Source of the DNA: Verrucomicrobiota bacterium
GTDB taxonomy: Bacteria > Verrucomicrobiota > Verrucomicrobiia > Limisphaerales > JACDHS01
Assembly: GCA_013820875.1 (NCBI GenBank)
Contig: JACDHS010000047.1
Location: 1-34,793, forward strand
Reading direction: 5' to 3'
Length of the DNA stretch: 34,793 nt
Below are positions 14,724 through 33,064 of the stretch, piece after piece. The notes beneath the pieces are model-generated. The model made no database searches. It saw only the letters and a list, made by a program, of their open reading frames with translations, and was not told the DNA's origin. Position 1 is the stretch's first letter, and every line of letters begins with the position of its first letter. The position numbers and the translations under genes are program-made.

Positions 14724-15111
14724 GGTATGCGTGCGGTTCCTACCGAGTGACCTTTTAACAGTAAAAGGTATGTGTGCGTTCCCGTCGAGTGACCTTTTAA
14801 CGGTAAAAGGTATGCGTGCGGCTCCCGCCGAGTGGCCTTTTAACGGTAAAAGGTATGTGTGCGGCTCCCACCGAGTGACCTTTTAACAGTAAAAGGTATG
14901 TGTGCGGCTCCCACCGAGTGACCTTTTAACGGTAAAAGGTATGCGTGCGGTTCCCGCCGAGTGACCTTTTACCGGTAAAAGGTGTGTGTGCGGATCCCGC
15001 CGAGTGACCTTTTACCGGTAAAAGGTATGTGTGCGGCTCCCACCGAGTGGCCTTTTAACAGTAAAAGGTATGCCTGCGGTTCCCACCAAGTGACCTTTTA
15101 CCGGTAAAAGA
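14724..15111. repeat. Tandem array of nine palindromes at 43-bp spacing
   Basis: Nine copies of a 20-bp palindrome, best form ACCTTTTACCGGTAAAAGGT, begin at 14750, 14792, 14835, 14878, 14921, 14964, 15007, 15050 and 15093. The period is 43 bp, with one 42-bp step. The 23-bp intervals are themselves conserved (ATGTGTGCGGCTCCCACCGAGTG with C/T and A/G changes), so this is a tandem repeat and not a CRISPR. Most differences at the palindrome centre (AACAG, AACGG, ACCGG) keep the arms paired. The period is not a multiple of three and no start or ribosome-binding site fits, so coding is unlikely. Confidence 0.9.
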
Positions 15112-18835: not shown

Positions 18836-18853
18836 GTCTCGCACTGTTTTGAA

Positions 18854-18926
<73 letters not shown>

Positions 18927-19509
18927 CCCCTTGAAAACACTACTCCAATCAATGTTTTTAGTGGTTTTCTTCACTTTCCCACTCCAAGCCCCAAATGTAA
19001 CCAGATGCAACGGAAGGAAACAAAATACCACTAAATGAAGGCTTAATGGTTACTGTTGTGGTTACTGGTTATTTCCACCGTTTACTTCGGAAGTGCTCTG
19101 CCTGCCGCTTTCGTATTGCTGGCGGGAGTGCTGTTTTTAATTTGGGGAATTCTTTGGATCTTGTTTCCAGTGTTCGGTTTAACGAGTGGCTGTGGTAGGG
19201 GATCCAAGTGGTGGTGATGTAGTTCGTTTTTGGTGTTCGGAAGATTTTGGTTCTGTTTTGGCCAGGCGAGTACACACCGCTTCCACGGAGTTTTGTTTTT
19301 GGTATCTTTGCCGCTGCTCAGGCGGCCAGCGCCAGTGCGTCTCTTTGTTCCAGCCGCTCCAGTCCCCACAAGTTGTGTGTCACGAAACATTTTGGGGATT
19401 CTCCGATTCGGTTTCAATTTTGTGTGTTTTTGCGGGCAGGTGCGGAAGCTTCATCCGGGCAAATTGTCGAAAAATAAGGGTTTTTTCACTTTGGGGCGCC
19501 AGAAACGTG
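18927..19509. other. Gene-poor stretch downstream of tRNA-Thr
   Basis: No recognisable gene. Short frames on both strands have unlikely composition, and one is just the antisense of the tRNA. The motif GTAACC near 18997 and GGTTAC twice near 19048-19067 form scattered inverted copies. The base composition is more T-rich and irregular than in the flanking genes, consistent with imported or decayed DNA. Confidence 0.4.
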
Positions 19510-19701
19510 GCCTGGATGGTCTCAAGGCCACTTGAATATCATTTCAAAACCGCCTGGACGGTCTCAAGGCCACTTAGATTTCATATCAAAACCGCCTGGA
19601 TGGTCTCAAGGCCACTTGAATATCATATCAAAACCGCCTGGATGGTCTCAAGGCCACTTGAATATCATTTCGAAATCGTCTGGATGGTCTCAAGGTCACT
19701 T
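19510..19701 (+). repeat. 42-bp tandem repeat, four full copies and one partial
   Basis: Units begin at 19510, 19552, 19594, 19636 and, truncated, 19678. The first 20 bases of the consensus unit are GCCTGGATGGTCTCAAGGCC, and it continues with ACTTGAATATCATWTCAAAACC. Each unit contains the small inverted repeat CAAG-GCCA-CTTG. Because 42 is a multiple of three, the array is open in one frame (a 14-residue repeat, WMVSRPLEYHIKTA), but the surrounding frame has no family match or ribosome-binding site. A minisatellite is the safer reading. Confidence 0.85.
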
Positions 19702-19873
19702 CCGATGCTTAACTAAAGAAGAGCGTCCATGCCGGGCGAGTAAGGACTGAGACCTTTACGCAGGCAATGAAAAAACCAGAAACGCTTACAAATTGCCGTA
19801 GACACAGCAGCTTACAAAAACTAAGGTAACTTCGATGAAACGTATACCCCCAAGCTCATAAGTATACCCAACT

Positions 19874-19880
19874 GTTCGGC
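19874..19880 (+). other. Possible left boundary of cassette array (GTTCGGC)
   Basis: GTTCGGC resembles the R' core box seen at the end of the attC-like site ending at 20488 (GTTCGAC). Like it, it lies about ten bases before an ATG. It could be the left junction of the first cassette, but no stem-forming partner is visible to its left. Confidence 0.25.
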
Positions 19881-19888
19881 TCGTATTC

Positions 19889-20172
19889 ATGCCAACACTT
19901 GCTACAAGTTTTGCCGAACTCACTGAAGGGATGACCGGCTTGGCCGTGCTGTTAACGTTCATCGCGTTGCTAAGCCTTGTTCCGGCATCTCGTGGCTCAT
20001 GGTGGACTTGGCTGTTCTAGTTATATCGTTGTTCACGGGAATCCTACTGGTCAGAGATCTCTTTTTGTATTCGAAGCAGTTGCCTTTGTTTTTGACTTTG
20101 CTATATCCGTTACCACTGATTTTCACGGTCGTCTCGATTGTTTTATGGACGATTCGCCGCAAACCCAGATGA
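19889..20172 (+). CDS. Small membrane protein(s), two overlapping frames, possibly one frameshifted gene
   Basis: A frame from the ATG at 19889 to the stop at 20018-20020 gives 43 residues with one hydrophobic helix (MTGLAVLLTFIALLSLVPASRG). An overlapping second frame, ATG at 19999 and stop at 20170-20172, gives 57 residues with two helices (LAVLVISLFTGILLV and LPLFLTLLYPLPLIFTVVSIVLW) and a basic end, RRKPR. Joined by one indel near 20000-20020 they would make a three-helix protein of about 95 residues. Both frames are under 60 codons and are easily missed. The product is unknown. The unit lies in the first presumed gene cassette (19875-20482). The 187 bp that follow, before the attC-like site, contain no convincing gene. 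Confidence 0.45.
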
Positions 20173-20359
20173 CAAAAAAAACGAACCAAACACTGGAGAC
20201 TCCGACCTGACTTTGTTTCAGCCATTCTGTATGCTACCCGGGTTCGTTGCGGCGCCAGAGAACGACATGTTTGACTTGATTCTCGATCCGCGTTCGGAAG
20301 CGGAGCGCAGAATCGGGCGAGATGAGAGATTATTGATTCGGACGCTCAGTCAACCGTCT

Positions 20360-20488
20360 GCGTAACAAGGCGGTGGAGGACAACGGCTGCTCCGCGTTTG
20401 CAGATTGTATGTTTTCGGATTTTCTAACAGTCTTTGTTGCAGGCGAGGCGGCGCTTACAGCAGCCGTGCCTCACCTGATTCGTTCGAC
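20360..20488 (+). repeat. attC-like element A
   Basis: A 129-bp imperfect palindrome. The left arm (20372-20391) pairs with the right arm (20459-20475): GGTG with CACC, AGG with CCT, CA with TG, and CGGCTGCT with AGCAGCCG. Three unpaired bases (G76, A80 and A83 of 20300) lie only on the left arm. The outer boxes are GCGTAAC and GTTCGAC. Asymmetric extrahelical bases and terminal AAC/GTT boxes are the hallmarks of integron attC sites. Its last 60 bp resemble element C (TTTGTTGCAGGC and GGCGCT-ACAG shared). Confidence 0.55.
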
Positions 20489-20500
20489 CACATTACGCAC

Positions 20501-20950
20501 ATGGCAAGGTCGGTGCATGACAACTTCATCGTTAGCTACGAGGTTCATTGCGAGCGTCGGGAGATTCGCTTGCACACCGAATATCGCGACCGTGGTGAGC
20601 CATTCGAGCGCACGGTCGTAGTATTCACTGGTGTCGAGGCTTACTCTTTTCAGCATGATTGTCTTGGCAACATCATCTTTGACATTGAAGAGGTTCCCGC
20701 AGAGAGCATTCTCACCCAGCATCGGGCCCAGTTTGAGGAGGGGTGTCGCGTCGCAGGTTGGCCGCGCTTCTGGCAGAAGTCTCTGGATCCGGCTCGCAGA
20801 TATTTACATGAGCAGGCCACGCGCGGTTTTGAACTTTCTTCGTCATACGGCATGTCTGGGTGGATTCTTGCGCGTGACATGCAGATGTTTGATGGAGATG
20901 GCCATGTGGTCAACAAGCCGGTCGAGCCAACAGCGCCTCCGCGGAGCTGA
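20501..20950 (+). CDS. Hypothetical protein, presumed cassette gene
   Basis: A 149-residue soluble protein that I do not recognise. It starts MARSVHDNFIVSYEVHCERREIRLHTEY, with a mixed alpha/beta composition and an FDIEEVPAESIL segment. The frame is open upstream to 20405, but that part overlaps attC-like element A. The ATG at 20501 lies 12 bases past the element, as in integron cassettes. The C-terminus (NKPVEPTAPPRS) is encoded by the left arm of attC-like element B, so the repeat contributes the protein's end. The region is unlike its housekeeping neighbours and looks acquired. Confidence 0.6.
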   Translation: MARSVHDNFIVSYEVHCERREIRLHTEYRDRGEPFERTVVVFTGVEAYSFQHDCLGNIIFDIEEVPAESILTQHRAQFEEGCRVAGWPRFWQKSLDPARRYLHEQATRGFELSSSYGMSGWILARDMQMFDGDGHVVNKPVEPTAPPRS

Positions 20951-21034
20951 TTTATGTCGTTGGGTTACAGAAAAGTTTGGTTCCAGCCACGGGTGCCTTT
21001 TCGGGCGCTGTGGCTGACCTCGAACCTGTCAAAA
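20908..21034 (+). repeat. attC-like element B
   Basis: A 127-bp element. Left-arm GGTC, AGCC and ACAGCGCC (20920-20937) pair with right-arm GGCGCTGT, GGCT and GACC (21004-21019). They leave exactly two unpaired bases, G20924 and A20929, on the left arm. The outer boxes are degenerate (GGTCAAC and GTCAAAA). It overlaps the 3' end of the preceding gene and ends seven bases before the next ATG. Confidence 0.55.
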
Positions 21035-21041
21035 GAGCAAT

Positions 21042-21494
21042 ATGAAATCTATTCGCCTATTCTTCCCCGCCATTGCATTCCTGCTCATTTCGACCGGCAT
21101 TGTTGCCGGACGCATCGTTCGCCCTTGGTCGTATCAAGAACTGCTCGATAAGGCTGACCTGATGGTCATTGCCACGCCTACAGCCACCAACGACACCAAG
21201 GAGCATGGCGACCACCCAGACCGCATTGGCCAGCCAGTCATCGGTATCGAGACCGGATTCGCGGTTTCAGCCGTCCTCAAAGGTGATAAGATGCTAAAGG
21301 ATTTTGTTCTTCAGCACTACCGATCCGACAAGGTGGAAGTTCCCAACGCCCCCACTTTTGTCTCCTTCGACCCCGCCGAGAAAAGGACATATATTCTTTT
21401 CCTCGTTCGGGAAGCTGATGGCCGCTATGCACCCGTAGTCGGTCAGACGGACCCCGGATTAGGAGTCAAAGAGCTTGTAGGTGTCGCCAGGTGA
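21042..21494 (+). CDS. Exported hypothetical protein, presumed cassette gene
   Basis: A 150-residue protein with a clear signal peptide (MKSIRLFFPAIAFLLISTGIVAG). A compact mature domain beginning YQELLDKADLMVIATPTAT follows, with YILFLVREADGRYAPVVG near the end. I recognise no family with confidence. The ADLMVIA opening and the exported location suggest a periplasmic or surface role. It lies between attC-like elements B and C, starting seven bases after B and ending seven bases before C, so it fills its presumed cassette exactly. Confidence 0.65.
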   Translation: MKSIRLFFPAIAFLLISTGIVAGRIVRPWSYQELLDKADLMVIATPTATNDTKEHGDHPDRIGQPVIGIETGFAVSAVLKGDKMLKDFVLQHYRSDKVEVPNAPTFVSFDPAEKRTYILFLVREADGRYAPVVGQTDPGLGVKELVGVAR

Positions 21495-21501
21495 GCAACG
21501 T

Positions 21502-21628
21502 GCCGAAAAAATCGGTGCAGACAACAGAGCCCCCCCGCTCGCAGTTTTGCGCCGTTGGGTATTTCATCTACTTTGTTGCAGGCAGCGTGGCGCTCACAGG
21601 CTCTGTGGCTGACCGTCGCACGTTCAGT
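21502..21628 (+). repeat. attC-like element C
   Basis: A 127-bp element. Left-arm CGGT, CAG and ACAGAGCC (21513-21531) pair with right-arm GGCTCTGT, CTG and ACCG (21599-21615). G21517 and A21523 are unpaired at the same relative places as in element B. The outer boxes are GCCGAAA and GTTCAGT. It ends against the 3' end of the convergent DksA-like gene and so closes the presumed array. Confidence 0.55.
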
Positions 21629-32900: not shown

Positions 32901-33064
32901 CGGAGCGCGGCATAACCGCAAAGCGGTTCGTCGCTTCTATAGTTCTGGTTTGTGCGAAGCATCAGCCGCAGCACTTGCGGCTGCGATTATAGCTTTCGGA
33001 CTTCCAACGTTGCTCGCATCGCCGTACGCGCTGCGGCTGATCCTTCGGACACAGCCGCGCTCCG
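32901..33064 (-). repeat. Dispersed ~160-bp palindromic-ended element, copy 3
   Basis: Inverted relative to copies 1 and 2. Terminal repeats are complete (CGGAGCGCGGC and GCCGCGCTCCG). Internal hairpins include AACCGC-AAA-GCGGTT and the GCTGCGGCTGATC arm. It sits in the moaD-moaE gap, which is normally short or absent. Its sequence extends the open frame upstream of moaE without being part of it. Confidence 0.8.

Follow-up and report, generated by a model that had tools for sequence, protein, structure and literature searches.

Integrons and Integrase-Free Cassette Clusters

Integron cassettes are excised and integrated as single-stranded attC hairpins of the bottom strand, on which the integron integrase acts at G^TT. 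The VCR of Vibrio cholerae and the attC of class 1 integrons share an R''-L''-L'-R' layout, a bottom-strand hairpin, extrahelical bases, and 7-bp end boxes (PMC8946536). The same source counts an unpaired central spacer and a variable terminal structure among the features of attC. Integrons have been recorded from Verrucomicrobiota, Planctomycetota, and other phyla (PMC8618304). Pseudogenes make up about a third of intI genes, and some of them stem from duplication within a genome (PMC2426708). Sedentary chromosomal integrons with intI pseudogenes, as in Xanthomonas (PMC8618304) or the pseudo-integrons of PMC2426708, combine a large cassette collection and an attI platform with an inactivated integrase.

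The closest described systems are the CALINs. In the passages of PMC9024848 and PMC8618304 that relay the definition of Cury et al., a CALIN is a cluster of attC sites lacking an integron-integrase. PMC9024848 counted 2961 of them, and PMC8618304 lists both off-target insertion and rearrangement as possible origins. They comprise at least two tandem attC on the same strand, with a small gene ahead of every attC and no integrase nearby, and have been proposed to be degraded or detached integrons.

The region described herein shares these traits. It lies in the window, that is, the whole 34,793-nucleotide stretch of DNA analyzed, which is contig C55 of a 5.7-Mb assembly in 239 contigs that is 99% complete. 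With a probability that we put at about 95%, the region is a CALIN: three tandem integron gene cassettes, each made of a small gene and an attC site, located in the chromosome away from attI and integrase. It differs from a working array in being more decayed, as two of its three attC have each lost a crossover triplet. Its sites have the layout, hairpin, extrahelical bases, and end boxes of VCR and class 1 attC, while the sequence families appear to differ.

Three attC Sites in the Window

Reading of the window sequence placed the three elements, A (20360–20488, 129 bp), B (about 20905–21034), and C (21502–21628), where an earlier sequence-only reading had located them; all features of the array are on the forward strand. 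Each element consists of two long, imperfectly complementary arms separated by a variable middle of about 60 bases, and a repeat finder had joined the right halves into one family (D3). The asymmetry that had first suggested attC sites is real: the extra bases, set in brackets below, are all on the left arm. In A they are G, A, and A (GGTG[G]AGG[A]CA[A]CGGCTGCT against GGTGAGGCACGGCTGCT, the reverse complement of the right arm). In B and C they are G and A, with left arms GGTC[G]AGCCA[A]CAGCGCC and GGT[G]CAGACA[A]CAGAGCC, respectively; the L'' and L' arms span 20920–20937 and 21004–21019 in B, and 21514–21531 and 21599–21614 in C. This anatomy agrees with what PMC8946536 describes for attC.

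The outer boxes had been called degenerate. That description holds for B, which keeps R'' (GGTCAAC, 20908–20914) and has lost the GTT of R', and for C, in which the R'' core reads GCCGAAA (21502–21508, AAC having become AAA) and R' is G^TTCAGT (21622–21628). In A, both GCGTAAC (R'', 20360–20366) and G^TTCGAC (R', 20482–20488) are kept. The imperfect palindrome R''-L''-L'-R' with both AAC and GTT was found in full in A and in 26 of 28 attC sampled elsewhere in the genome. B and C are decayed attC, since their L arms and their homology to intact sites remain despite the loss of GTT in B and of AAC in C.

The identification as attC is supported by covariance-model matches and by the bottom-strand hairpin, the joint absence of which would, according to the earlier reading, have refuted it. 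A covariance model (R1) and a profile HMM were built from the same eight homologous elements on other contigs of the genome, with the window copies excluded. Over the window, R1 matched A at 134.8 bits (E = 3e-35), C at 78.0 bits (E = 1.4e-19), and B at 51.6 bits (E = 2.7e-12), every remaining match being at or below 12.8 bits; the corresponding HMM scores were 121, 67, and 37 bits. These matches are far beyond chance. A second covariance model (R2) was derived from short attC taken both from this genome and from a relative in the same order (G004). As tested on the window, it represented the genome's commoner short attC with the window's own attC families left out, and it gave A, B, and C only 7–11 bits, which is not significant and counts against the CALIN reading. 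Intact members of the second of the window's families are nevertheless detected by R2 (45, 39, and 31 bits); the weak scores of the window elements are attributed to their long-loop families and worn state. An Rfam scan of the window at gathering thresholds returned tRNA only and none of the attC families; a tRNA-Thr (CGT) is found at 18853–18929, some 0.8 kb ahead of the array.

When bottom-strand DNA is folded, the minimum-energy structure of two intact family members, C133:1685–1816 and C18:1898–2028, is the attC hairpin, one arm of which carries extrahelical bases. The attC fold lies 0.7 kcal/mol above the minimum in A and 3.5 in C, and the unconstrained fold of B contains the L''/L' stem. 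The arms also covary, with scores of 0.368 against 0.108 after shuffling for the short attC and of 0.219 against 0.134 for the family of the window type.

The top R2 match in the window is a strong imperfect palindrome at 32952–33050. It scores 21.7 bits on one strand and 15.1 bits on the other and has no AAC or GTT boxes, and it was rejected as a chance hairpin.

Cassette Boundaries and Genes

The cassettes are in tandem on the same strand, every attC being preceded by one small gene, as had been proposed. The extent of the first cassette had to be revised. It had been presumed to start at 19874 and to measure about 608 bp; the start is probably at 19756, which gives about 727 bp (19756–20482), as the R'' box of A has its complement in TTACGCAG at this position. 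The left edge is thereby inferred, and the base before it is T where G is usual. Cassettes that had each once been circular, with the circle joined at G^TT, would be expected to show such complementarity between their start and the R'' of their own attC. Of 32 cassettes in five intact arrays, four of which belong to this genome and one to the relative G001, 21 show it, compared with a mean of 4.7 and a maximum of 12 upon shuffling. In the window, it is seen in cassette 1, at the probable start, and in cassette 2, and not in cassette 3; this last result and the unusual base at the left edge count against the CALIN reading. Cassette 2 (20483–21027, right end approximate) starts with TTCGACCACAT, to which the R'' of attC B (reverse complement TTGACCACAT) is complementary with one base lost. 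A 42-bp tandem repeat of 4.6 copies (19510–19701) is situated just upstream of the probable start of the first cassette, and another tandem repeat, of 43 bp, nine copies, and a different sequence, occupies 14724–15110.

The gene of cassette 1 (19889–20172) probably encodes a small membrane protein whose frame is broken (MPTLATSFAELTEGMTGLAVLLTFIALLSLVPASRGSWWTWLF / LVISLFTGILLVRDLFLYSKQLPLFLTLLYPLPLIFTVVSIVLWTIRRKPR), a frameshift judged from composition alone in a three-frame translation. Searches of the cassette proteins against Pfam, NCBIfam, and PADLOC gave no match for any of them.

The gene of cassette 2 (20501–20950) encodes 149 amino acids. Five distant relatives with 26–35% identity were found, in records of Verrucomicrobiaceae, Opitutales, Oscillospiraceae, Eubacteriales, and Spirochaetes. 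The reading frame enters the arm of attC B (20920–20950), which adds a C-terminal tail, VNKPVEPTAPPRS, that is missing in the relatives. The AlphaFold model (pLDDT 75) aligns with the PIM7 immunity protein 8owu_E with a VIA Z score of 8.9 over 90 residues (rmsd 2.5) and with the Neisseria protein 5v77_A with a Z score of 7.9, the next structures reaching at most 3.6; a Foldseek search with the same model found none at E ≤ 0.001. The predicted fold thus resembles that of the polymorphic-toxin immunity protein PIM7, and an immunity-like role may be taken as a lead, not a finding. On an Opitutales contig, an attC-like sequence (AGCGAAC...GTTAGCT, L151:803–874) overlaps the end of a relative of this gene, with a weak covariance-model score of 10.4 bits.

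The gene of cassette 3 (21042–21494) encodes a hypothetical protein of 150 amino acids, whose hydrophobic N-terminus suggests a secretion signal. It has matches in three of 146 genomes of the order, the window's own included, and the other two are 65% and 39% identical. In G001, the case for its being a cassette gene is weak: the relative lies about 4 kb past the array of that genome, and no attC was detected after it.

attC Sites in the Rest of the Genome

Further copies of the elements were sought elsewhere in the genome and found. Scattered single copies without gene association, which would have spoken against integron cassettes, are not the pattern: the elements stand mostly in tandem, with a small gene before every one. 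Used as a DNA query, element A retrieved five near full-length copies with 87–91% identity (three at about 90% and two at 87%) together with partial ones. Pattern search located another family, which is close to C and B, on contigs C18, C20, and C237; attC C shares 82–84% identity with intact attC on C18 and C20 across about 120 bp. Homology among family members stops sharply at the end boxes R'' and R', beyond which the flanks are unrelated. The boxes of the intact relatives are textbook examples (e.g., GGCTAAC...GTTAGCC on C133), and the L''/L' arms are present.

R2 recovers 81 sites at E ≤ 0.1 in the genome and R1 alone adds 15, which brings the census to at least about 95 attC on 34 contigs; this is a lower bound, as the best 150 candidates were scored. 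Direct reading of other contigs revealed tandem arrays of a dozen or so cassettes with several attC types. A weak match at C237:1589–1675 was dropped for lying inside an unrelated-looking long frame, and the pattern matches at C237:2224, C218, and C31 do not look like attC.

Integrase Remnants and attI-Like Platforms

The window contig has three attC and no intI match, in agreement with the earlier description of a CALIN-type array, and the window holds no complete integron (functional intI plus attI at the array). As to whether the rest of the genome has intI, the answer is divided: N-terminal pseudogene copies exist on other contigs, and an intact gene was not found, as a TIGR02249 search of the 99%-complete assembly gave none over the cut-off. 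As the search turned up no intact intI, the array is rightly labelled a CALIN. The TIGR02249 matches at C127 and C198 probably represent XerC/XerD-type recombinases and were discounted, similar C-terminal matches occurring in most relatives.

The intI copies of the genome, at C69, C220, and C56, are all truncated. These three near-identical N-terminal fragments of about 95 residues read KLLDQVR...TQNQAMNALV and are followed by unrelated sequence and 41-bp tandem repeats. The platform copies span C69:1525–2523, C220:38345–39300, and C56:33873–34736, and an extra fragment is present at C217:138–308, all of them outside the window. The platforms on C69 and C220 head cassette arrays with different first cassettes, with an attI-like junction beside the intI pseudogene: the two are alike up to the GATAATCAATG^GTT crossover and different past it, and the intI fragment is on the correct side, the arrays beginning immediately before it. 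The genome thereby resembles the sedentary integrons with inactivated integrases in its cassette collection and attI platform, and differs from them in that a single truncated N-terminal intI recurs in three copies on as many contigs, an array having been seen with two of these, and that no intact copy was found.

An intI over the cut-off is present in 12 of the 39 genomes searched, a set made up of the window's own genome, one from its family, and 37 from its order. In G004, an intI gene (386 bits) adjoins an array, one attC of which is nearly identical to the T2 type of the window's genome. In G015, from another family of the order, attC of the window type have the N-terminal remains of an intI next to them. 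One intI copy in this genome (L159:5560–5900) stops matching after the conserved motif NQAxNAL, as do the copies in the window's genome, and L158:130–730 holds intI remains with an internal deletion.

Origin and State of the Array

The array is flanked by core genes encoding phosphate acetyltransferase (Pta), UvrA, and a DksA-like protein, and therefore sits in the chromosome. As an outlier of the genome's main cassette collection, it may be either detached or off-target, and it has begun to decay, A alone having both AAC and GTT while B and C are each one short. As each has lost one crossover triplet, B and C should no longer recombine. An array that is still mobile, its cassettes excised and shuffled in trans by an intact integrase that either escaped assembly or comes from another element, is improbable. 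The complete triplets of A and of most attC sampled elsewhere would suit such activity, recent movement is suggested by near-identical attC that belong to different cassettes, and arrays often lie at contig ends, where an intact intI could be lost in assembly; against this stand the near-complete assembly with no intI over the cut-off, the truncation of intI in the platforms seen, and the worn boxes of B and C. That the elements are not attC at all, and are instead REP- or MITE-like structured repeats placed after small genes by chance, is scarcely credible and largely refuted. Two families of high sequence identity on many contigs do recall a dispersed repeat, but homology ends at R''/R' between unrelated flanks, and the tandem same-strand arrays follow genes, some of them from an attI-like junction beside intI remains. 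Neither the complementarity of cassette starts to R'' nor the sharing of the attC type with a relative, beside a full intI, is expected of REP or MITE.

Within the CALIN reading, the cassettes may have come by off-target insertion by an IntI encoded elsewhere and not by breakage or rearrangement of a main array, an origin that we put at somewhat below even odds. Platform sequence is absent beside the array in the window, core genes stand on both sides, and the attC families are shared with the main arrays, all of which would fit insertion; three ordered cassettes would, however, require repeated insertions at one spot, and the base at the left junction is T, not G. A broader scenario, which we hold to be rather unlikely, is that of a dispersed integron system without an intact integrase, made of the cassettes on 34 contigs and three attI platforms that share the intI remnant and the 41-bp repeats. 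The platforms would have been duplicated after integrase loss, the arrays kept or recombined without integrase, and the window array would be one of several relocated pieces.

Significance

As a CALIN, the window array is an ordinary, well-known kind of element, and what is mildly notable is found outside the window, in a cassette-rich genome with three copies of a truncated-integrase platform. It is these duplicated platforms on other contigs that may interest specialists. The case also illustrates that attC sites can be recognized by tool-free reading of their asymmetric bulges alone. It adds another cassette-rich genome to the carriers of integrons, and the array itself would offer a snapshot of cassette decay after detachment from the integrase, with crossover triplets lost and the stem still recognizable.
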